Shown here in pieces: positions 51,032 to 62,363 of a stretch of DNA of 64,000 nucleotides. Made by a program: the position numbers and the translations under genes. How positions within the stretch are numbered: the stretch's first letter is position 1; every line of letters starts with the position of its first letter. Source of the stretch: Gallionellaceae bacterium (lineage in GTDB: Bacteria; Pseudomonadota; Gammaproteobacteria; Burkholderiales; Thiobacillaceae); assembly GCA_028714875.1 (NCBI GenBank), contig JAQTLN010000006.1:1-64000 (forward strand). The letters run 5' to 3'. The notes under the pieces were generated by a model. It was not told the DNA's origin and did not search any database. It saw nothing but the letters and a program-made list of their open reading frames with translations.

Positions 51032-51889
51032 GTGATCAGGTTCGCAGTAGTCAGTACCAAGGGCGGCGTCGGCAAGACGACGCTCACCGCCAACCTCGGC
51101 GCTATCCTCGCCGATCTGGGGCTTCGTGTCCTCATGATCGACGCGGATGTGCAGCCGGCACTGAGCAAGTTCTATCCGCTCAAGCACCAGGCGCCTCGCG
51201 GCCTGACGCACATCATCACGTCCGGGATGATCACGGCCGATGCCATCTCGGTCGTCGATCTGCCCGTGAATGGCGTCCTGGACATCGTGGTGTCCGATAC
51301 GCCCGAGGGCCAGATACAGACTTGGCTCATGAATCAGACCTTCCGGGAGACCCGGCTCTATGGGCCTCTGCACTCGGTGGAACTGGAGGAACAGTACGAC
51401 GTCGTCTTGATCGACACGCAAGGCGCCGTGGGGCCACTCCAGGACGCGGCTGCCCTGGCGGCCGACATCCTGATTTCGCCGATCGTGCCGGAGGCTTTGT
51501 CGGCCCGCGAGTTTCTCAGCGGGACGATGGATATGCTCAACCGCTTGTCCTACCGTGGCGCGCCGATGCCGCACACGCCGTCACTCGGCCCGGTCAAAGC
51601 GTTGATCTACCGTCAGACACGCACGGCCGATGCCAAAAGCATCGCCCAGCAGATCAAGCGCGAGGGGCATATCCCGCTCGCGGGACGGGTTACCGTGCTG
51701 GACACCGTGATTCCCAGCGCCGTGGCCTACACCCGCGCCGCGACAGACCGCTTGCCTGTGCATTGGCATGACCGGGTGACCACCGGGGCTACGCCCTGCG
51801 CCTATGAAGTCATGCATCAACTGGTATGGGAACTGATGCCCAACCTGGAAGGCATTCAGGCCGGCAACATTGGCGAGGGGGCTGCGTAA
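51032..51889 (+). CDS. parA: ParA/Soj-type partition ATPase of the integrative element
   Basis: The 285-residue protein has a deviant Walker A STKGGVGKTTLTANLG (residues 8-23), a Walker A' VLMIDADVQPALSKFY, and Walker B in YDVVLIDTQGAVGPLQ. Later sequence (VVDLPVNGVLDIVVSDTPEG) matches ParA proteins of PFGI-1-type elements, where this is the first gene at one end and is needed for element maintenance. The start is GTG 51032, preceded by GGAGAAG; an upstream GTG at 51005 lacks a ribosome site. It is coupled to parB (TAATG). Confidence 0.93.
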   Translation: MIRFAVVSTKGGVGKTTLTANLGAILADLGLRVLMIDADVQPALSKFYPLKHQAPRGLTHIITSGMITADAISVVDLPVNGVLDIVVSDTPEGQIQTWLMNQTFRETRLYGPLHSVELEEQYDVVLIDTQGAVGPLQDAAALAADILISPIVPEALSAREFLSGTMDMLNRLSYRGAPMPHTPSLGPVKALIYRQTRTADAKSIAQQIKREGHIPLAGRVTVLDTVIPSAVAYTRAATDRLPVHWHDRVTTGATPCAYEVMHQLVWELMPNLEGIQAGNIGEGAA

Positions 51890-53616
51890 TGACGGAACCC
51901 AAAGGCCGAAACAAACCAACCATCCCATTCGCGGCGGACGCCGACCTTACCAGACTCTCAAAAAACAGAATGACGCCGGAGGACGTGCGGGCGCGTATGC
52001 GCCGGACGGTAGACCTGGCTGACTCCCTGAACATCCCGAATCCACCCAATGCCGCCGCCGGCATTACGCCGAATTCGATGCTCGACGGCAGCAAGCACGA
52101 AATCCCGCTGGCGAAGATCCGGCCCTATGACCGCAACCCGCGCAAATCCAGCAACGCGGCTTACGAGGACATCAAGGCTTCGCTTGGTGCAACAGGCCGC
52201 GACAGCCTGGAACTTTGGGTCACACAACGGCCTGGCCAGGACTGGTACATGCCCTACCGTGGCGGCAATACCCGCCTGGCGGCAATCCAGGAACTGTTCC
52301 AGAAAGGTGACCCACGCTGGGAGCGCCTGATCGTCGTCTACAAGGTATGGGTTTCCGAGGCCGACACCCTGGCTCAGCACCTGATCGAGAACAACAACCG
52401 AGCGGATATGACCTTTTGGGATAAGGCGTGTGCTTACCTGGTCGACATGCGCGCGGAGATTGAGAAGGAGATCGGTGGGACTGTGTCCATCCAGAGGCTG
52501 GAGGATGAACTTTCGCGTAGGGGTATTGGTGTCAAAAAATCGCTGCTCTACATGTTCCAGTTCGCCGTGGTACGACTGCAAAAGGCCAGTCCCTTCCTGA
52601 GCGCCACGCAAGTTATCAAAATACAGCCCGCCATCAACCTGCTTGCCCGTCTCGCCGAGAAGTTCGGCCTCGATGACACCGGTTTCCAGGCTGCGCTCGA
52701 TGGCGTACTGGATGCGCAGCGCGCGCAACTGGAAGCATCGGAGGACAAGGATGAAGGCGTCCGTGCGGATGCCCTCCTCCCCGCCGTGGAAGCCGCCCTC
52801 GCCGCCCGCCTTGGCGGCACGCCCGCTGAAATGCGCCGCTGGCTCGATACCTTGGCACGCTTCCCGGATGCCAGCGAGGAGGATTTGCGCAACGCGCCGC
52901 CTGCACCACCTGCGCAGCCCAAGAAGCCCGCGAAGACGGCAGCCCCCTCCCCCGCTCCGGGCGACCCTTCCAACGAAGGCACCACCGGGAATACGCCTGG
53001 CCAGTCCAGTCTTGCGCAGGACGCAACCGCCCCGGCATCGGAGGCTGGTCAGGGTTCCGTGCGCATGGCCGCCGGCAGCACGGAAGAAGTCGCGAAGGCG
53101 ATTTCAGGCAACGTGAACACGACGATCATGCTCAGGGTCAATGAGACAACGGGCACGCCCCTGGCCGCTGCCCATGCCCTCGCCCAGGCGGCCCATGTCG
53201 AGGATTGCCTGCGTGAATACGCGCCGATGCCGGATGGCTTCTACATGGAGCTTCCGACCGATGCCATCGACGTCTGCGCGGAATGTCCGCGTACATCACA
53301 TCGCATCATCGCCTGGCAATTGCTCGCGGTGCTGTCCGGGCAGTGGGACGAAGCCACCTGCCGGAAGCTGCCGATGGACTCGCTATGGAGGCGTATGCGT
53401 TTGTGCGAGGGTGGACTTAGCTCTGAAGCCCTACCCATGTTGGTCCAGGACCAACTGCTGGTGGACATCGGTGGACACAGCACGCCTGGCGCGGCCGATC
53501 TTGGCTGGGGGCCGTCGGTCGGCATCGGCTGGGTGGTCGACCTGTTGACCGATCCTGCCTGCGCCGGCGCCGCCGCCGGCCTCCTTCTTCATTTCACGAA
53601 GCGGGAGGAGGTATGA
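51889..53616 (+). CDS. parB: ParB-family protein, PFGI-1-class integrating conjugative element
   Basis: The 575-residue protein has a ParB/Sulfiredoxin-like domain near residues 65-160 (EIPLAKIRPYDRNPRKS, then PYRGGNTRLAAIQEL) and a helical DNA-binding region. It continues in a proline/alanine-rich linker (about 350-410) and a C-terminal element-specific domain with CAECPRTSHRIIAWQLLAVL. The length and layout match the TIGR03764 group of element ParB proteins. It overlaps parA and the next gene. Confidence 0.9.
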   Translation: MTEPKGRNKPTIPFAADADLTRLSKNRMTPEDVRARMRRTVDLADSLNIPNPPNAAAGITPNSMLDGSKHEIPLAKIRPYDRNPRKSSNAAYEDIKASLGATGRDSLELWVTQRPGQDWYMPYRGGNTRLAAIQELFQKGDPRWERLIVVYKVWVSEADTLAQHLIENNNRADMTFWDKACAYLVDMRAEIEKEIGGTVSIQRLEDELSRRGIGVKKSLLYMFQFAVVRLQKASPFLSATQVIKIQPAINLLARLAEKFGLDDTGFQAALDGVLDAQRAQLEASEDKDEGVRADALLPAVEAALAARLGGTPAEMRRWLDTLARFPDASEEDLRNAPPAPPAQPKKPAKTAAPSPAPGDPSNEGTTGNTPGQSSLAQDATAPASEAGQGSVRMAAGSTEEVAKAISGNVNTTIMLRVNETTGTPLAAAHALAQAAHVEDCLREYAPMPDGFYMELPTDAIDVCAECPRTSHRIIAWQLLAVLSGQWDEATCRKLPMDSLWRRMRLCEGGLSSEALPMLVQDQLLVDIGGHSTPGAADLGWGPSVGIGWVVDLLTDPACAGAAAGLLLHFTKREEV

Positions 53617-54155
53617 GCCGCATCGACATCGACTCGCAAGACCTGAGTTTCAAGGTGTTGTGTTACCTCATCGAATTGGCCGAGTCGGGCGAAATCGACC
53701 AGCTCATCGCCGCCGGCTTCTCACCGGAAACCATATCGACGTTACGCCAGATGACGGTAAACGATTTGAGCAGCCTGGCCGGCACGGTGGGGATGGTGTC
53801 TCTGTTAGTCAATGTGAGGCGATTCGAGTCCGCCATATCAGCCAGGACACGCCGGATCAACGACTCGCAAGACCTGACCTATCTCGCCCGCGCGGGCGCC
53901 ACGGCGCTGCTGTTGTCGGAGATTTTTCGGATCTCGCTTACTGAGGCCGAGGCGCATCTGGCCACCCTGATGACCACGGACAAGCGTTCTGGCCGCCCCA
54001 GCATGCCGGATGTGGGCACACGCGATGCAATCCACCAGTGGTGGGCAGTGAACCAATCCATGCCGACACGCCAGCGCTGGATTGCGCTGCATAAGAAATG
54101 GCCGCAATTCTCCCTGGCGTCCCTGTACGCCGTGATCAACGAATTCAACATGTGA
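53613..54155 (+). CDS. DUF2857-domain protein
   Basis: The 180-residue protein is of a family found next to parB in PFGI-1/SPI-7 elements (SFKVLCYLIELAESGEIDQLIAAGF; ISLTEAEAHLATLM). The C-terminal half (QWWAVNQSMPTRQRWIALHKKWPQFSLASLYAVI) looks like a helix-turn-helix. Regulatory function is plausible but not shown. It is coupled to parB by an ATGA overlap. Confidence 0.85.
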   Translation: MSRIDIDSQDLSFKVLCYLIELAESGEIDQLIAAGFSPETISTLRQMTVNDLSSLAGTVGMVSLLVNVRRFESAISARTRRINDSQDLTYLARAGATALLLSEIFRISLTEAEAHLATLMTTDKRSGRPSMPDVGTRDAIHQWWAVNQSMPTRQRWIALHKKWPQFSLASLYAVINEFNM

Positions 54156-54164
54156 GGTGACGCC

Positions 54165-54644
54165 ATGAATAACCGCGCCTTGAAACCCGATCCAAAGCCC
54201 GTCCAGGGCATGCGCCCTTCCCACATGATGGTGGTCTTCGACGAGCCCATCGTCGCCCAGCGTTGGGCAGTCACGGCAACCGGCAGCATTACCGCCGCCG
54301 TGATGATTTCCTACGCGCTGCAACTGAGCCAGGCCCTCCAGAACAAAAACGAAGGCTGGTTCGCCAAGACCATCAAGGAATGGCAAGAGGAAGCCGGCCT
54401 GTCCAGATCGGAACAGGAAACGGCGAGAGCCAGATTGCTTGAACTGGGTCTGCTCAAAGAGCGGCGGAAGGGGATGCCGGCACGGCTGGAATACAAGGTC
54501 GATCAAGACCGCGTCTATGCCCTGGTCGATGCGCTGGCGGCCGATTCCTATGGCCACCTGGACGAGCGGGTATGCGCGGCGCCGCAGGCCAAGAGCGGGA
54601 AACGTGCATCGAAGGCGTTCCCGCCGGGGTATCGGCCGCTATGA
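54165..54644 (+). CDS. Winged-helix protein paralogous to the element replication protein
   Basis: The 159-residue protein has a central winged-helix-like segment (WFAKTIKEWQEEAGLSRSEQETARARLLELGLLKERRKG). It aligns with the first such domain of the following gene (WLRASDWYEGAGLSGREQATARIILKGMGILEEKRIG). It is therefore a probable duplicate of the DNA-binding half of the replication protein and could be a copy-number or start-site regulator. It lies 9 bp after DUF2857. Confidence 0.7.
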   Translation: MNNRALKPDPKPVQGMRPSHMMVVFDEPIVAQRWAVTATGSITAAVMISYALQLSQALQNKNEGWFAKTIKEWQEEAGLSRSEQETARARLLELGLLKERRKGMPARLEYKVDQDRVYALVDALAADSYGHLDERVCAAPQAKSGKRASKAFPPGYRPL

Positions 54645-54688: not shown

Positions 54689-56134
54689 ATGGCCCAGCGA
54701 CGCCCACCCAACCGATCAACCCGGCAAGCTATTGCCGGGCAGGTGGGGACCGTCTCGTCTGCACTGGGCCAGAGCTATGTCTCCTACCATCCCCTCCTGG
54801 CCACCGTGACCGGTAATGTGAAGGCTGCCCTGTTCCTGTCTCACGCCATTTCCTGGTCGCGCTATGTGCATAAATCACAGCCTGATCGTGATGGATGGTT
54901 CTGGCTGCGTGCATCGGATTGGTATGAGGGTGCGGGTCTCAGCGGCCGTGAGCAGGCCACCGCTCGAATCATCCTCAAGGGGATGGGCATCCTGGAAGAG
55001 AAACGCATCGGCGTGCCGGCCAAGATTTGGTACAGGGTGAATCTGGACAAGCTGGGACACCTTGTGGCGGCATCTGCCGGCCGGCAGTTCGAGGAGTGGA
55101 GTTGGGACCGCGCGGCCATGCTTCATCTGCTGGGCCAGCCCGTTCCCTGTCACCGGATTCTGATCAAGGTGGCGGGTGGTGTTGTCGGCGGGCTGATCCT
55201 CTCCTACCTGTTCCGCGCCACCCGGCGCGACCTGTCGGACGGAGGCGATGGCGAATGGATGCACATCCCTGTGGGCCATACACGCGAGTTTCTGGGCATC
55301 ACGCCCAAGCAACAGCGCAGGGCCAGGGAGCGTCTGCGCCTGGCCGGTCTGGTGGAAGAAACGTTTGAGCGAGTCGTTCAGCCCAAGCTTCTGACCCGTC
55401 TGAATCTGGGTCAGCTTGGCCTTGAATGTGCCAAAAAAGCTAATGAAATCCACTGTTTGCAGGATTCTGCAAACATGTTTGCAGGATTCCGCAATCAAGA
55501 TTGCAGGATCCTGCAAACAAGAGTTGCCCAAAGCGCATATCTGGAGTTGCCCAAAGCGCAAAACAAGGAATGCCCGAACCGCATAACTGGAGTTGCCCAA
55601 AGCGCAGATCAAGCTGTGCGGAAAGGGCTAATCACTAAAGAAGAAAACTACAAAAGAGAACCACTACAAAAAGCCGCGCCGGAAGCCCAGGCGCCCTCCC
55701 CTGCCCCGGCCGTGGGTAGTAGTAGTGAGTTGGAAATCATCCTTCCCGAGAAACTGCTGGCCGGCGAAGCCACCGCCGCCCGCAACTGGCTGATGCCGCT
55801 GGAGGGCGAACTGCGCCAGCAGGTGGCGGATGAATGGGCTGGCTTGCTCTCGCTATCTGCTCGCGGCATCAAGCCCATGTACAGCCGCCTCGGCGTGCTC
55901 AACACGCTGGTGAAACGGGCCAAGGGCCTCGACAACGAACCTTTCACACCGTGCCTTTGCTTCGAGGTTGCCGCTGCTCGTCTGCGCCGGCAGGAGATCG
56001 AGGCGATGCGCCAGCAGCAGTCCGCCAGCCCCGCCAGCCCCGGTGTGGCACGGGATTGGCAGGCTACGGATGCAGGCAGGGCGTTGCTGAGGGAAAAAAT
56101 GGCGGAGTTGGGGATGGCGAGGAGGTCGACGTGA
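54689..56134 (+). CDS. STY4528-type pathogenicity-island/ICE replication protein
   Basis: The 481-residue protein has two winged-helix-like domains: residues about 45-130 (FLSHAISWSRYV ... RASDWYEGAGLSGREQATAR) and about 150-240 (ILSYLFRATRRDL ... TREFLGITPKQQRRARERLRLAGL). A low-complexity linker (about 255-340) follows, then a helical C-terminal domain. The family is annotated as pathogenicity-island replication protein. The linker is encoded by two arrays of DNA iterons with 22- and 23-bp period (see origin entry); neither period is a multiple of three, so the repetition is a DNA signal and not a protein one. Confidence 0.85.
   Translation: MAQRRPPNRSTRQAIAGQVGTVSSALGQSYVSYHPLLATVTGNVKAALFLSHAISWSRYVHKSQPDRDGWFWLRASDWYEGAGLSGREQATARIILKGMGILEEKRIGVPAKIWYRVNLDKLGHLVAASAGRQFEEWSWDRAAMLHLLGQPVPCHRILIKVAGGVVGGLILSYLFRATRRDLSDGGDGEWMHIPVGHTREFLGITPKQQRRARERLRLAGLVEETFERVVQPKLLTRLNLGQLGLECAKKANEIHCLQDSANMFAGFRNQDCRILQTRVAQSAYLELPKAQNKECPNRITGVAQSADQAVRKGLITKEENYKREPLQKAAPEAQAPSPAPAVGSSSELEIILPEKLLAGEATAARNWLMPLEGELRQQVADEWAGLLSLSARGIKPMYSRLGVLNTLVKRAKGLDNEPFTPCLCFEVAAARLRRQEIEAMRQQQSASPASPGVARDWQATDAGRALLREKMAELGMARRST
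55457..55516 (+). repeat. Iteron array A: three palindromic 16-mers at exact 22-bp spacing
   Basis: TTGCAGGATTCTGCAA (55457-55472), TTGCAGGATTCCGCAA (55479-55494) and TTGCAGGATCCTGCAA (55501-55516). Each has TTGCAG/CTGCAA-type arms. Start-to-start distance is 22 bp both times, so the units lie on the same face of the helix. Confidence 0.92.
55521..55606 (+). repeat. Iteron array B: four direct 17-mers at exact 23-bp spacing
   Basis: GAGTTGCCCAAAGCGCA occurs at 55521-55537, 55544-55560 and 55590-55606. A diverged copy GGAATGCCCGAACCGCA lies at 55567-55583. All starts are 23 bp apart. Confidence 0.92.
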
Positions 56135-56370
56135 TGCAACTGGCGCAGCAAGCCCCCAGCCGCCGAATGCCTGGCGCCGAAAACCTTCCAAGCCTTGGAA
56201 AAACCAGCCGCCGAATGCCTGGCGCCGAAAACCTTCCAAGCCTTGGAAAAACCAGCCGCCGAATGCCTGGCGCCGAAAACCTTCCAAGCCTTGGAAAAAC
56301 CAGCCGCCGAATGCCTGGCGCCGAAACTCAAATTACTGAAGGAGAAAACCATGCCCGTATCTGCTGTTGA
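56134..56370 (+). CDS. Possible small repeat protein coupled to the replication gene
   Basis: A 78-codon frame starts with an ATG overlapping the replication-gene stop (TGATG), after GGAGG at 56121-56125. It translates the 48-bp tandem repeat as three 16-residue units (SRRMPGAENLPSLGKT). All six frames across the repeat are open because the unit is a multiple of three, so openness is not evidence of coding. Only the coupled start supports it. Confidence 0.35.
   Translation: MQLAQQAPSRRMPGAENLPSLGKTSRRMPGAENLPSLGKTSRRMPGAENLPSLGKTSRRMPGAETQITEGENHARICC
56158..56325 (+). repeat. Tandem 48-bp repeat, 3.5 copies, each with a perfect palindrome
   Basis: Identical units start at 56158, 56206 and 56254, with a half unit at 56302-56325. 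Each full unit contains TTCCAAGCCTTGGAA (7-bp arms, one-base centre) at 56186, 56234 and 56282. The array sits directly downstream of the replication gene and could be a partition centromere, an incompatibility-type titration site or an operator. Confidence 0.93.
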
Positions 56371-56749: not shown

Positions 56750-56854
56750 GGGAGGACTCCTTTCGGTTGGTTGGAATGCGGTTGCTACCCCGCTCTTCAA
56801 TCTTACCGCCGGGCTGTTCCTCCCTCCCCTTCCCCCAACCCAACCAAATTGATC

Positions 56855-57898
56855 ATGGCCACCACTCTAAAACCCACGTTCGCCACCAGCCCGGATTCGC
56901 CGTTTCCCGATCACTACGACATCGCCGAGGAAGAAGCCGCCCTCAAGGATCTGCTCGACGCCGAGAACCCGAACACGATGGATCCCAGGTGGTCTCGGGT
57001 AGTCGAACTCGAATCCCGCAAAGAGACATTGCAACGGTCCCAGTCTGAATACCGGCAACGTCAGGGCGCGGACAGGCTGGTCTCCAACAAGGAAGCCAGC
57101 GACATGCGCTACATCGGCGCCCTGGAAGACGAAGACCAGGACACGATGACGCTGCATACCCGTGAGGCGTATCGGTTGTTCATGGGGAGAGCGCGCGATG
57201 CGGAGGGTAATCACAGCCCTATCGTCGGCGGTCGGCGTGTCGCTTCGGCATTGCGTTCGGCCTGGGTGCTATCCGGCAATGACAACCCTTATGCGGACTG
57301 GGTGTTGATCGCCTTCATGGACCGCATGGATGCAGCCAAAGAGAAGCTGGAGACGGCGATTACCGGGTGCGAGAAGGTGTTGAAAGACCTGCGCCAGCGG
57401 GGGTTGACCTATTCGGTGTTGCGGTCGCGTGAGCCGAAGGATGTGGACCTGGGTTTCCGCAGCCCATACGGCTATGCGGTCGCCGAGTTGATCGTGCATT
57501 ACGACTATTTCGTGCGCTTGATCAAGACGCTGATCAAGAAGGATCGGATGTCTGACGACGAAGGCCGCGTGGTCATGCGCCAGCGGGTTCGCGAGATTCG
57601 GTCGATGTTCGAGGATCCATCAAAGTACGAGCGCTACTTGATGCGCGAGGAACTGCGCCAGCTCTCTCGTTCCGATTTCCTGCCTGGTGCGAATGAGGAG
57701 GCTCAGAAGCGTGTGGCAGCGGTGGTGGGGTTGTTCGGGGAAGTGCCGCGAGAGGTGTTCACCGGGCAGATTGCGCCACGTCATAGCCGTAGGCACGCGA
57801 ACTTGTCGGAGAAGGAATTACGCCTGTTGCAGGAAGCCGCGCTTTCGCCTGTGGCAGCCGATGCCTCGGATGAGGATGAAGGCGGGTTGTTGGAATGA
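56855..57898 (+). CDS. TIGR03761-family integrating conjugative element protein (PFL_4669 type)
   Basis: The 347-residue protein matches the TIGR03761 group in content and position. It has a central conserved part with TLHTREAYRLFMGRARDAEGNHSPIVGGRRVASALRS-like sequence (residues about 98-140) and SPYGYAVAELIVHYDYFVRLIKT near 214. Its biochemical role is unknown, but it is one of the constant genes of this element class. It is coupled to the next gene (ATGA). Confidence 0.88.
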   Translation: MATTLKPTFATSPDSPFPDHYDIAEEEAALKDLLDAENPNTMDPRWSRVVELESRKETLQRSQSEYRQRQGADRLVSNKEASDMRYIGALEDEDQDTMTLHTREAYRLFMGRARDAEGNHSPIVGGRRVASALRSAWVLSGNDNPYADWVLIAFMDRMDAAKEKLETAITGCEKVLKDLRQRGLTYSVLRSREPKDVDLGFRSPYGYAVAELIVHYDYFVRLIKTLIKKDRMSDDEGRVVMRQRVREIRSMFEDPSKYERYLMREELRQLSRSDFLPGANEEAQKRVAAVVGLFGEVPREVFTGQIAPRHSRRHANLSEKELRLLQEAALSPVAADASDEDEGGLLE

Positions 57899-59031: not shown

Positions 59032-59460
59032 ATGAGTCTTGAACTGGCAGTACGACAAATTGGTTTCACTGCGGCGCTTCCGGAGTTGCGCTACATGCCT
59101 TCGGGTGATGCGGTGACGACGATTCGGGTCGGGACGACCGATCGCTGGAAGGACAAGGATGGAGAGATTCAGGAACGCACCACCTGGCTACGCTGGTCAT
59201 GCTTTGGCAAGTCGGCCGAGAACCTGGCCAAGATGGTCGGCAAGGGGGCTTATGTTGCCCTGGAAGGCACCATCCGTAACCAGAAGTGGGACGACAAGGA
59301 TGGCAACACTCAGTACCGCGACTCTTATGTGGTGGACGAGTGGCGGTTGCTGGATCGCAAGCCGAAGGATGTGGGTGCCGATGGAGCCGCAGATGAAGCG
59401 ACTGGTGCTGGTGTGCCGCCCCAATCGGGTTGGGGCGGCGATGATGATGTTCCGTTCTGA
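59032..59460 (+). CDS. ssb: Single-stranded DNA-binding protein of the integrative element
   Basis: The 142-residue OB-fold protein has IGFTAALPELRYMPSGDAVTTIRVGTT, WLRWSCFGKSAENLAKMVGKGAYVALEG and an acidic tail ending DDDVPF, the docking tip for partner proteins. The ribosome site is GGAAGGAGAGG. Elements of this class normally carry their own ssb before topB to protect DNA during transfer. Confidence 0.95.
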   Translation: MSLELAVRQIGFTAALPELRYMPSGDAVTTIRVGTTDRWKDKDGEIQERTTWLRWSCFGKSAENLAKMVGKGAYVALEGTIRNQKWDDKDGNTQYRDSYVVDEWRLLDRKPKDVGADGAADEATGAGVPPQSGWGGDDDVPF

Positions 59461-60204: not shown

Positions 60205-60522
60205 ATGAGTATGGCATCGGAGTTCGTTATGGAAATTGAACTGCATTTCCCGACAGGTTTGCGGGATTCTGAAATCAAAACCATCAGAGAGGTTGTCTCT
60301 GACATGCCCCTACACCCACAACCTGTGCCAGAGGGGTATTCGTCCTGGGAACAGGCTTTACTGGATGAATTGAGTGGCGTGCATGAGGCAACACCCTTGT
60401 CTCAGCCCGTGGCGTACTTCATGACGTTGGTCCGCGCTTGCAAAGAAGGGCGTTTTACCCCACAGCAGGCCTACCGAATTTTGGCACGAAGGCTGAATAA
60501 GCGGCTGGCTGGGATGTGCTGA
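60205..60522 (+). CDS. Element protein of unknown function (about 105 residues)
   Basis: It begins MSMASEFVMEIELHFPTGLR; the ATGs at 60205, 60211 and 60229 are all possible starts. The sequence IKTIREVVSDMPLHPQPVPEG and the basic C-terminus (FTPQQAYRILARRLNKRLAGM) look like a real small protein. I recognise no family. Confidence 0.65.
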   Translation: MSMASEFVMEIELHFPTGLRDSEIKTIREVVSDMPLHPQPVPEGYSSWEQALLDELSGVHEATPLSQPVAYFMTLVRACKEGRFTPQQAYRILARRLNKRLAGMC

Positions 60523-60575: not shown

Positions 60576-62363
60576 ATGCATCAAGTCGAAATCAAGCATT
60601 TCCATCTGTTCGCCGGCTTAGGCGGTGGCGCCGCCGGTTTCAATCGCGGCGAAGCGCGTGTAGGCAACCTCCAGGCGAAGTTCCGCTGCCTGGGCGGGAT
60701 CGATGTCGATCCTGCCGCGATCAGAGACTTCGGCCGCCTGGCCGGTGTGCCGGGCACGGTACTGGATCTGTTCGATCGTGAGCAGTACGTCGATTTCCAT
60801 GGCCGCTCGCCGCCGGCAGGGTGGCGTGAAGCCACGCTCGACGACATTCGCCGCGCGGCCGGCGGCGAGCGGCCCAACATCGTGTTCACCAGCCCCCCTT
60901 GCAAGGGGCTCTCGGGGCTACTGTCGGAGTCCCGTTCCAAAACAGATCGCTATCAGGCGTTGAACCGCCTCACCCTGCGCGGGATCTGGCTGACGATGGA
61001 GGCCTGGGCGGATGATCCGCCCGAGTTCGTCATCCTGGAAAACGTGCCGCGCATCCAGAGCCGGGGCCGGCATCTGCTGGACCAGATTGGTGACGTGCTG
61101 CGGAACTACGGCTATGCCGTGGCGGAGACGACTCACGATTGTGGGGCGTTGGGTAATCTTGCGCAGTCTCGAAAGAGATTCCTGCTGGTGGCGCGGCATA
61201 CCGGGAAAATTAGCCCGTTCCTCTATGAGCCGCATCGGCGCCCACTGCGCGCAGTGGGCGATGTGCTGGGCCGGATGCTGCTGCCAGGCGACCCCGCCGG
61301 CGGGCCGATGCACCGTGTGCCCCGCCTGCAATGGAAAACCTGGGTCAGATTGGCGTTTGTACGGGCCGGTTCGGACTGGAGAAGTCTGAACGAGCTGGCC
61401 GTCGAGGATGGCATCCTGCGTGATTACCTTATCGTCCCGGAGCGGCGCCGGGATTTCCTGGGTGTCACAGGCTGGGATGAAACTGGAGCGACTGTATCTG
61501 CGCGCGGACTGCCGACCAACGGACGCTACTCCGTGGCGGACCCACGATCTGTCTCTGGCTTCGAGGGTGGAGGGAAATATATCGTCACTCCGTTCGACTC
61601 CCCGTCGAATACCGTCATCGCCGGCAGCACCACGGGCAATGGCGCGTTCGCCGTATCGGACCCTCGGTTTCACGGGCATGAATATGGACAGTACGGTGTG
61701 CTGCCATGGGGTAAACACACTGGCGCCGTCAGCGGCCAGAGCAAACCGGGTGGAGGCGTCTACACCGTCGCGGATCCGCGACCGGTAGGCCCCATCTTCG
61801 GGAAATACGCGGTGACGCCATGGGATGTGAATAGCGGGACCGTGATCTCTACCAGCACCGCTCAGGGTGCCTTTTCTGTGGCCGACCCACGTCCTGGCCT
61901 ACACCGCGAGCGCGGCGACCACTACCTCACTGCCGGCCACTACGGCATCGTTCCATGGGAAACCCCAAGCGGCGCAGTCACGGCATCGACGGGGCATGAC
62001 AACGGCTATGGTTCTGTGGCCGATCCCAGGGTGGATGCCCTGCCGGCCGCTACCGAGAACCTTGTTGCCGTCATCCGCGCCCTGGATGGGACGTGGCACA
62101 GGCCGTTCACCACTTTGGAGCTGGCGGCCCTCCAAGGCCTTCTGGATCCCGAAGAGCAACTCGAACTGGATGGGCTGAGCGACTCGGATTGGCGTATGCG
62201 CATCGGCAATGCCGTGCCGCCGCCAGCGGCGCAGGCCATCGCTAGTGTGATGGGCAAGACGTTGTTGCTGGCGTGGTCAGGCGAGACATTCTCGTTGGGC
62301 AACACGCCGATCTGGGTGCGGCCGGTGGCTGTGGCGCTGGCTGTGCGGGGAGGTGGGGTATGA
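60576..62363 (+). CDS. DNA (cytosine-5) methyltransferase with repeats in the target-recognition region
   Basis: The 595-residue enzyme has motif I HFHLFAGLGGGAAGF (residues 8-22), the catalytic cysteine C109 in FTSPPCKG, ENV at 155-157 (VILENVPRI), QSRKRFLLVAR near 197 and motif X MRIGNAVPPPAAQAIAS near 545. Between about residues 310 and 490 an unusual region repeats a unit of roughly 40 residues about five times (VADPR ... YGVLPW ... SGTV). No restriction enzyme gene is adjacent, so it is an orphan methyltransferase, perhaps shielding the element from restriction. Confidence 0.92.
   Translation: MHQVEIKHFHLFAGLGGGAAGFNRGEARVGNLQAKFRCLGGIDVDPAAIRDFGRLAGVPGTVLDLFDREQYVDFHGRSPPAGWREATLDDIRRAAGGERPNIVFTSPPCKGLSGLLSESRSKTDRYQALNRLTLRGIWLTMEAWADDPPEFVILENVPRIQSRGRHLLDQIGDVLRNYGYAVAETTHDCGALGNLAQSRKRFLLVARHTGKISPFLYEPHRRPLRAVGDVLGRMLLPGDPAGGPMHRVPRLQWKTWVRLAFVRAGSDWRSLNELAVEDGILRDYLIVPERRRDFLGVTGWDETGATVSARGLPTNGRYSVADPRSVSGFEGGGKYIVTPFDSPSNTVIAGSTTGNGAFAVSDPRFHGHEYGQYGVLPWGKHTGAVSGQSKPGGGVYTVADPRPVGPIFGKYAVTPWDVNSGTVISTSTAQGAFSVADPRPGLHRERGDHYLTAGHYGIVPWETPSGAVTASTGHDNGYGSVADPRVDALPAATENLVAVIRALDGTWHRPFTTLELAALQGLLDPEEQLELDGLSDSDWRMRIGNAVPPPAAQAIASVMGKTLLLAWSGETFSLGNTPIWVRPVAVALAVRGGGV
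61510..62040 (+). repeat. Protein-level repeat (VADPR...PW units) inside the methyltransferase
   Basis: The motif VADPR or VSDPR recurs five times. In the intervals a Y-x-V-x-PW-D/E/G segment and a SGTV/SGAV segment alternate. The DNA copies are diverged, so the repeat is maintained at the protein level. Confidence 0.8.

Follow-up and report, generated by a model that had tools for sequence, protein, structure and literature searches.

What does a phased array of inverted repeats do in the middle of a gene? The question is raised by a 64,000-nt stretch of DNA from a Gallionellaceae bacterium (contig JAQTLN010000006.1 of assembly GCA_028714875.1, positions 1 to 64,000; hereafter the window), in which a 481-aa open reading frame (ORF; 54689..56134, plus strand) contains such an array and, directly beyond it, an A+T-rich stretch. 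The gene belongs to an integrative and conjugative element (ICE) with two markers of the PFGI-1/pKLC102/ICEclc class, the PFL_4669 protein (TIGR03761) and a PFGI-1-class MobH relaxase, both over the cut-offs of their models. We consider it likely that the locus is the vegetative origin of replication (oriV) of this MOBH-type ICE, embedded in the gene for its own initiator, a protein resembling O of phage lambda. A putative oriV at this locus and in-gene origins of the lambda-O type were known before; new are a named candidate initiator, the embedding of the origin in its gene and an apparent phage/ICE chimera.

The array (55454-55634) comprises seven dyad sites and a degenerate, inverted eighth in a single phased series, with steps of 22, 22, 23, 23, 23 and 23 bp. 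Iterons A1-A3 (55454..55519, plus strand) are abutting 22-bp palindromic units (55454-55475, 55476-55497 and 55498-55519) with the core TTGCAGGATYCYGCAA, evident from the sequence itself, from Tandem Repeats Finder (TRF) and from pattern scans. Iterons B1-B4 (55520..55611, plus strand) follow in register with them at 23-bp steps, with the core TTGCCCAAAGCGCA, as seen in the sequence and by TRF; they are not uniform, B3 (ATGCCCGAACCGCA) having diverged from the other B copies by three mismatches. The half-site TTGC begins at 55457, 55479, 55501, 55524, 55547, 55570 (where it reads ATGC) and 55593. TRF detects the two sets separately, as 22 bp × 3.2 (score 98) and 23 bp × 3.7 (score 114), and the three 22-bp-step and four 23-bp-step iterons that the earlier note on this DNA had described inside the gene are borne out by the sequence, by TRF and by the codon shuffling described below. 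What it took for two separate arrays, however, is a single one: type A (TTGC-N8-GCAA) and type B (TTGC-N7-GCA(A)) look like variants of one dyad, and since they share half-sites and a common register, one array for each winged helix of the protein becomes less likely. The tentative eighth iteron (55612..55634, minus strand; reverse complement TAGCCCTTTCCGCA) lies one step beyond B4, and in the relatives L018 and L020 the last copies are, by eye, likewise inverted.

The array is particular to this place. With up to one mismatch, pattern A has no further copy in the rest of the 64-kb window, and the 4.08-Mb genome contains just one stray copy beyond the array, which leads us to reject a genome-wide repeat. 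A solitary iteron-like site at 60259-60274 (TTGCGGGATTCTGAAA, two mismatches to iteron A) is probably due to chance.

Could the period be that of a repetitive linker peptide, or of codon bias, with no function in the DNA? The linker is predicted to be disordered, and one short peptide, VAQSA, is encoded twice, since the 69 bp from B1 to B4 are divisible by three. Steps of 22-23 bp, however, shift the reading frame with every copy: the codon phases of the seven unit starts are 0, 1, 2, 0, 2, 1 and 0. VAQSA excepted, this agrees with the argument made previously that periods which are not multiples of three leave the peptide non-repetitive. Nor do 200 synonymous shuffles that keep both the peptide and the codon usage ever reach the score of the gene (50, at its best period of 46; highest shuffle, 42). 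Substitutions point the same way. In five pairs of close relatives (L001/L033, where L001 is the window gene and the region includes the A+T-rich stretch, L043/L045, L051/L055, L056/L057 and L062/L063; two pairs with L061 and the L036 cluster, from which L037 was left out, are not in this total and are taken up below), differences at fourfold-degenerate sites, counted where the residue is unchanged, number 2 in 114 for the array versus 217 in 1216 outside it, whereas for amino acids the counts are 37 in 258 versus 203 in 2253. This is the reverse of normal coding constraint. On the strength of the shuffles, the codon phases and the fourfold sites we reject a repetitive peptide or codon bias, to which we assign a negligible probability. 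Across 55435-55572, and the equivalent stretches in relatives, there are weak out-of-frame protein matches (about 44-55% identity, mostly with internal stops), which arise because the repeat changes frame with each copy.

A match was present in 24 of 117 genomes of the family, the window's own included, and a scan of genome contigs yielded 35 loci (L033-L067) whose titles include Thiobacillus, Dechloromonas, Methylophilaceae, Rhodocyclaceae, Gallionellaceae and Alcaligenes. For each of 62 genes, the best 66-nt window at every lag from 13 to 60 was compared with 200 synonymous-codon shuffles. In the window clade, defined as L001 plus L033-L064 (33 genes), a lag of 22, 23 or 46 beats all shuffles in 29 genes and in 16 of 19 clusters at 80% identity; of the 124 further ORFs called mechanically in these loci at a length of 250 aa or more, none beats its 60 shuffles. 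Four O-like genes outside the clade (L026 and L065-L067), the window-like L089 and L093, which were found via a model of the STY4528 protein family, and a gene of plasmid p48s4p (at lag 23) also pass. L080-L083 and L095 had no ORF for the profile and do not enter the counts; L080 and L081 are over the cut-off of that model (NF040582). The iteron sequence varies among relatives while, by eye, the 23-bp register stays. Although the iterons themselves diverge, the register is kept, and so, in most pairs, are the synonymous sites; the array is therefore under selection as DNA. The check proposed in the earlier note, a periodicity at the DNA level across relatives, shows it in most of the clade, with four exceptions considered below, and not at 22/23/46 in the canonical STY4528 genes. 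In a further relative, L005 (1291-2199), the sequence is 91% identical over residues 1-256 and the frame departs from the family, at a total of 302 aa, about where the array would start, by an insertion, a deletion or an assembly break.

The A+T-rich stretch (55629..55672; 73% A+T) adjoins the array and is, from its composition, a putative unwinding element. Over 55625-55672 the content is 67%, the two-thirds reported previously, and at 55673-55750 it is 32%. ACTAC occurs in it at 55647 and 55663. Between 10 nt before and 150 nt after the estimated end of the array, ACTAC is present in 22 of 30 genes, compared with a mean of 8.3 and a maximum of 14 in 300 shuffles (30 of 35 genes entered this count, L035, L045, L055, L057 and L063 being too similar to others, and for L001 the end of the array was placed manually). 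Codon frames 0, 1 and 2 contain 29, 2 and 6 of the copies, and part of the signal is therefore peptide. We take the complement of ACTAC to resemble the DnaA-trio. A presumably DnaA-trio-like sequence, GTAGTAGTAGTGA, also lies right after the A+T-rich stretch (55714-55726), and TAGTAG...CTACTA palindromes are found in several canonical STY4528 genes. DnaA boxes (TTWTNCACA, up to one mismatch) number two in L001 versus 3.6 expected, with no excess by the array.

The encoded protein matches the PHROGs family phrog_9773 ('replication initiation O-like'; E 2.8e-29), in two stretches confined to its DNA-binding half, as do 25 of 25 members of its alignment (A2); a Pfam scan of the 481 residues gives no family at cut-off. 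The AlphaFold2 model, built from 25 sequences (mean predicted local distance difference test, pLDDT, 73.7; predicted template modelling score, pTM, 0.53), has two similar winged-helix-like units ahead of a linker, in agreement with the two winged-helix domains claimed before. With limits set by eye from secondary structure, unit 1 spans residues 27-130 (54767..55078; pLDDT by block 82-94) and unit 2 residues 150-257 (55136..55459), both on the plus strand; pLDDT drops below 50 in the linker (residues 256-347), and residues 358-473 form a helical C-terminal region. Array and A+T-rich stretch correspond to about codons 255-328, inside the predicted disordered linker, so the putative origin would occupy DNA that codes for a tether. 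In the BFVD set of predicted viral structures, Foldseek finds 17 hits with E no higher than 0.001, among them several named phage replication proteins; searching solved structures by sequence with a limit of E 1 yields a single match (E 0.31). Iteron plasmid origins of the RepA/Pi type have a Rep_3/RepB-type initiator and iterons outside its gene; here the iterons are inside the gene and no Pfam Rep model matches at E 0.1, which does not fit that type.

How closely does this resemble the phage paradigm? In lambda, the annotated iterons (39034, 39054, 39078 and 39101) lie within gene O at steps of 20/24/23 bp. Lambda and Stx-phage O genes resemble the window gene in that dyad iterons, bound in these phages by the initiator, recur every 20-24 bp midway along the initiator's own gene, where they encode the middle of the protein, and in that an A+T-rich region adjoins them. 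The counterpart in the window comprises in-gene dyad iterons about two helical turns apart, an A+T-rich region on their downstream side and homology of the initiator to O-like proteins. Lambda has four iterons of 18-19 bp, no ACTAC after the array and gene P, for a helicase loader, after O, whereas the window has seven or eight iterons, two winged-helix-like units per chain and an ICE-type C-terminal domain. The partially available account of lambdoid phages places the origin mid-O, with six iterons in Stx phages and a 19-bp imperfect inverted repeat as the minimal binding sequence (PMC7466680). At lag 22 or 23, five of the seven phage O-like genes score higher than any of 200 shuffles (Vibrio phages X29, 39 vs 37, and PVP-XSN, 46 vs 45, both narrowly; Acinetobacter TRS1; Salmonella 118970_sal3; Pseudomonas CF63a), and Ssp-JY37 does so at lag 45 (44 vs 43). 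Like the window gene, these five have a related DNA-binding domain and an in-gene 22/23-bp array followed by ACTAC; they differ in that the tblastn match extends over roughly a single domain (19-23% of the query), with none reported for the C-terminal half. The lambda-O-like layout proposed previously is thus met with again both among relatives and among phage O-like genes, and the match to phrog_9773 fits it.

A different kinship holds for the C-terminal half. The earlier note called the gene STY4528-type; in fact NF040582 (STY4528_fam), at a limit of E 1, does not report the window protein while reporting 8 of the 10 members of protein set A1 (best E 1e-7), and at E 0.001 it has no match in the protein's own genome, where nothing reaches the family cut-off of 130 bits. 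Against 14 canonical STY4528 proteins only 84 C-terminal columns align (hhalign probability 98.8, E 4.1e-17; about residues 344-435, 55718..55993, plus strand). The window protein thus has in common with the STY4528 family the C-terminal domain and the gene order parB, DUF2857, initiator gene, PFL_4669, but its N-terminal half does not align. Because the O-like match is limited to the DNA-binding half and the STY4528 alignment to the C-terminal domain, the gene looks like a chimera of a phage-O-like DNA-binding half, an origin and an ICE-type C-terminal domain. The DNA-binding domain and its iterons might then form a swappable specificity cassette, a phage-O-like module having replaced the ancestral half while the STY4528 C-terminal domain and the gene order were kept. 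We hold this scenario tentatively, as a conjecture with slightly less in its favour than against it, any direction of phage/ICE exchange being something that we infer from sequence comparison. If it is true, an origin within the initiator gene would be a general design: recombination would not part the protein from its sites, and incompatibility groups would be kept apart.

The canonical genes themselves are built differently. The 22/23/46 period is found in none of 15 (L068-L079, L084, L096 and L097, some of them near-duplicates), nor in any of four plasmid-borne ones, two of which exceed every shuffle at another lag (ICEHin1056 at 33, pPant4 at 45). Many canonical genes have in-gene palindromes instead, which in several, though not all, exceed every one of 12 shuffles. 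Within the STY4528 gene of pKLC102 a GAGTTCGG...CCGAACTC palindrome occurs twice, much like the one quoted for PFGI-1, and 15.2 × 57 bp follow downstream; pPant4 has two similar in-gene palindromes and 2.1 × 36 bp downstream; ICEHin1056 has a 33-bp repeat in the gene and 4.6 × 36 bp downstream.

That no origin of this type had been described for the element class, as the earlier note believed, cannot be upheld, since putative oriVs at the locus were published for PFGI-1 in 2009 and for Haemophilus ICEs in 2007. In its available part, the former account (Mavrodi 2009, PMC2647930) puts a putative oriV immediately before PFL_4669, in which a 23-bp palindrome is directly repeated four times and four 46-bp repeats follow within a G+C-rich stretch, and states that PFGI-1 encodes no Rep protein; the latter, likewise as far as available, describes an iteron-like putative oriV in ICEHin1056, said to be consistent with pKLC102, SPI-7 and PAPI (PMC2258188). 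For pKLC102, the accessible text gives up to 30 circular copies per chromosome and a postulated oriV (PMC7685784), and members of the pKLC102-ICEclc group are said to have been shown able to replicate. Like the window, PFGI-1, pKLC102 and ICEHin1056 have, upstream of PFL_4669, repeated palindromes or repeats and then 36-57-bp direct repeats, which in PFGI-1 and pKLC102 are G+C-rich with a dyad; unlike it, they have another DNA-binding half and other iterons, and the 22/23/46-bp register is absent from the canonical genes. The available parts of the PFGI-1 and ICEHin1056 accounts do not place the oriV inside an O-like initiator gene, and no origin so placed was found in the open-licence literature, most of it titles and openings of abstracts with few subscription papers; in the accessible literature on the PFGI-1/pKLC102/ICEclc class the vegetative initiator is unnamed.

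The window, too, has direct repeats downstream, a block overlooked in the earlier note: between the initiator gene and PFL_4669 (56156..56326), TRF finds 3.6 identical copies of a 48-bp unit, each with a 15-nt dyad TTCCAAGCCTTGGAA. They are possibly the positional counterpart of the downstream repeats of pKLC102 (57 bp) and PFGI-1, and could be a partition, priming or AcaB site. They also bear on a further alternative, that an O-like gene was captured from a phage and its array is a relic, a dead or secondary origin, with the 48-bp repeats or the origin of transfer (oriT) being active. The homology of the initiator to phage O-like proteins would suit this, as would the 100% identity of the 48-bp copies, which implies recent homogenisation. 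Yet a relic would hardly show the selection described above, on register and, in most pairs, synonymous sites; and downstream repeats (period at least 25 bp) occur in only 11 of the 29 loci that extend far enough, six of these 11 belonging to one close-relative cluster (5 of 34 loci, with less than 500 bp downstream, were excluded), and are absent within 1.1 kb in L033, the closest relative. We regard a relic as very unlikely.

The anatomy of the locus, its conservation, the selection on its DNA and the homology of the DNA-binding half to phage O-like proteins are documented above; binding, unwinding, helicase loading and replication we infer. For an active in-gene origin we propose the following mechanism. 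After excision the initiator would bind the seven or eight phased dyad iterons, each dyad taking two winged-helix units per chain. Because the dyads are about two helical turns apart, the initiators may be aligned on one face of the DNA, which would wrap around them in an O-some. The adjoining A+T-rich stretch would then open, and the C-terminal domain would recruit the host helicase DnaB, either directly or via some loader. The ORFs that follow the initiator gene are a small one and PFL_4669/AcaB, with no lambda P-like loader, a diverse group, recognised there among the ORFs scanned; DnaB_C has no match on the window's contig, its matches in the genome lying on contigs C1 and C5 only.

Several observations weigh against a vegetative origin in the gene. 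According to the accessible part of the published work, the replication of ICEclc, measured as an increase in copy number, depends on the relaxase TraI and on oriT1 (PMC6561031). This favours what is the strongest rival: replication would proceed solely from oriT via the relaxase, and the array would be a regulatory or incompatibility site at which the O-like protein or its upstream single-domain paralog represses the operon or titrates the initiator. The PFGI-1-class MobH relaxase of the element suits such a scheme, as does the paralog, which has the same DNA-binding fold as the initiator and stands a short way upstream in at least 26 of 32 loci. A regulatory site is less easily reconciled with the position of the array, about 765 bp into the gene and away from its start, and with the succession of array and A+T-rich stretch with recurrent ACTAC, which is the layout of a phage origin. 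On balance we judge the oriT-only scheme unlikely, if clearly less so than a relic.

The other adverse points concern the protein, the period and the plasmids. For the protein family of the initiator, we found no binding or replication data. Foldseek finds no solved structure at E 0.001 or better, the matches being mostly to general winged-helix and transcription-factor folds, and the whole-query TM-scores of the viral matches are low (0.14-0.29). The period is absent from L054 (193 of 200 shuffles as high) and L058 (146/200) and marginal in L057 (6/200) and L064 (1/200). Fourfold sites are not clearly reduced in L061/L062 (4/20 in the array vs 52/225 elsewhere) or L061/L063 (4/19 vs 48/228), and the 28 pooled pairs of the L036 cluster give a weak contrast (64/691 vs 677/5643). 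Lambda itself, whose steps are unequal, does not pass at a fixed lag, 31 of 200 shuffles reaching its score. A partial Comamonas plasmid gene fails as well (171/200), although TRF finds a 24-bp × 2.8 repeat there. Finally, plasmids that bear the module lose force as proof of autonomous replication, as both of those read through have another likely initiator: in Burkholderia glumae p48s4p it is an RP-C-like protein, whose 22.3 bits fall slightly short of the Pfam cut-off, and in Pantoea pPant4 a protein annotated for replication initiation. IncpSTY plasmids, which reportedly have a repA of their own together with iterons, were set aside.

Members of the PFGI-1/pKLC102/ICEclc class can excise, and with a candidate initiator and a putative origin of about 220 bp now named, autonomous replication, incompatibility and independence of oriT become directly testable. 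The locus would also link ICE replication to that of phage lambda, and initiator specificity may move between phage and ICE as a cassette.

The surroundings of the gene, all on the plus strand, are in keeping with the element class. Upstream lie a ParB-like protein (51826..53616; NCBIfam TIGR03764, ICE_PFGI_1_parB, E 2.2e-33, 116 bits, under the cut-off of 143.75), a DUF2857 protein (53613..54155; Pfam E 3.9e-21 and synteny) and a 159-aa paralog with a single winged helix (54165..54644; phrog_9773 E 2.1e-21, 41% identity to residues 38-132 of the initiator). The paralog is possibly a regulator or co-initiator, and might compete for the iterons in copy control. Downstream follow the element-class marker PFL_4669/AcaB (56771..57898; TIGR03761 E 3.7e-43, Pfam AcaB E 4.1e-43) and a single-strand DNA-binding protein (59032..59460; Pfam SSB E 3.1e-21). 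In the 32 related loci, many of whose contigs end early, DUF2857 is upstream in 32, parB in 30, AcaB is present in 24 and ssb in 16; the count of at least 26 for the paralog is a lower bound, as a distance filter skipped some, for example in the relative G024. L054 and L058 are full-length with the same gene order and no detectable array in the linker; theirs may have decayed or moved, or they may be counter-examples.

Beyond the window, the same contig (G000:C6, 64001-128536) encodes a topoisomerase III-like protein, a VirB4/TrbE-like ATPase, a pilus-type secretin and the PFGI-1-class MobH relaxase. The one VirB4 ATPase scanned, out of the ORFs of the element, scores 22 bits with the TraC ATPase model TIGR03744, against a cut-off of 520.6, and is nearer VirB4/TrbE, which points to a transfer module other than that of the canonical class. 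A PFGI-1-class relaxase together with a VirB4/TrbE-like ATPase and a pilus-type secretin is unlike the canonical class, and B. glumae p48s4p is annotated with a similar set. Downstream of ssb, a cytosine-5 DNA methylase gene (60576-62363) is probably within the element.

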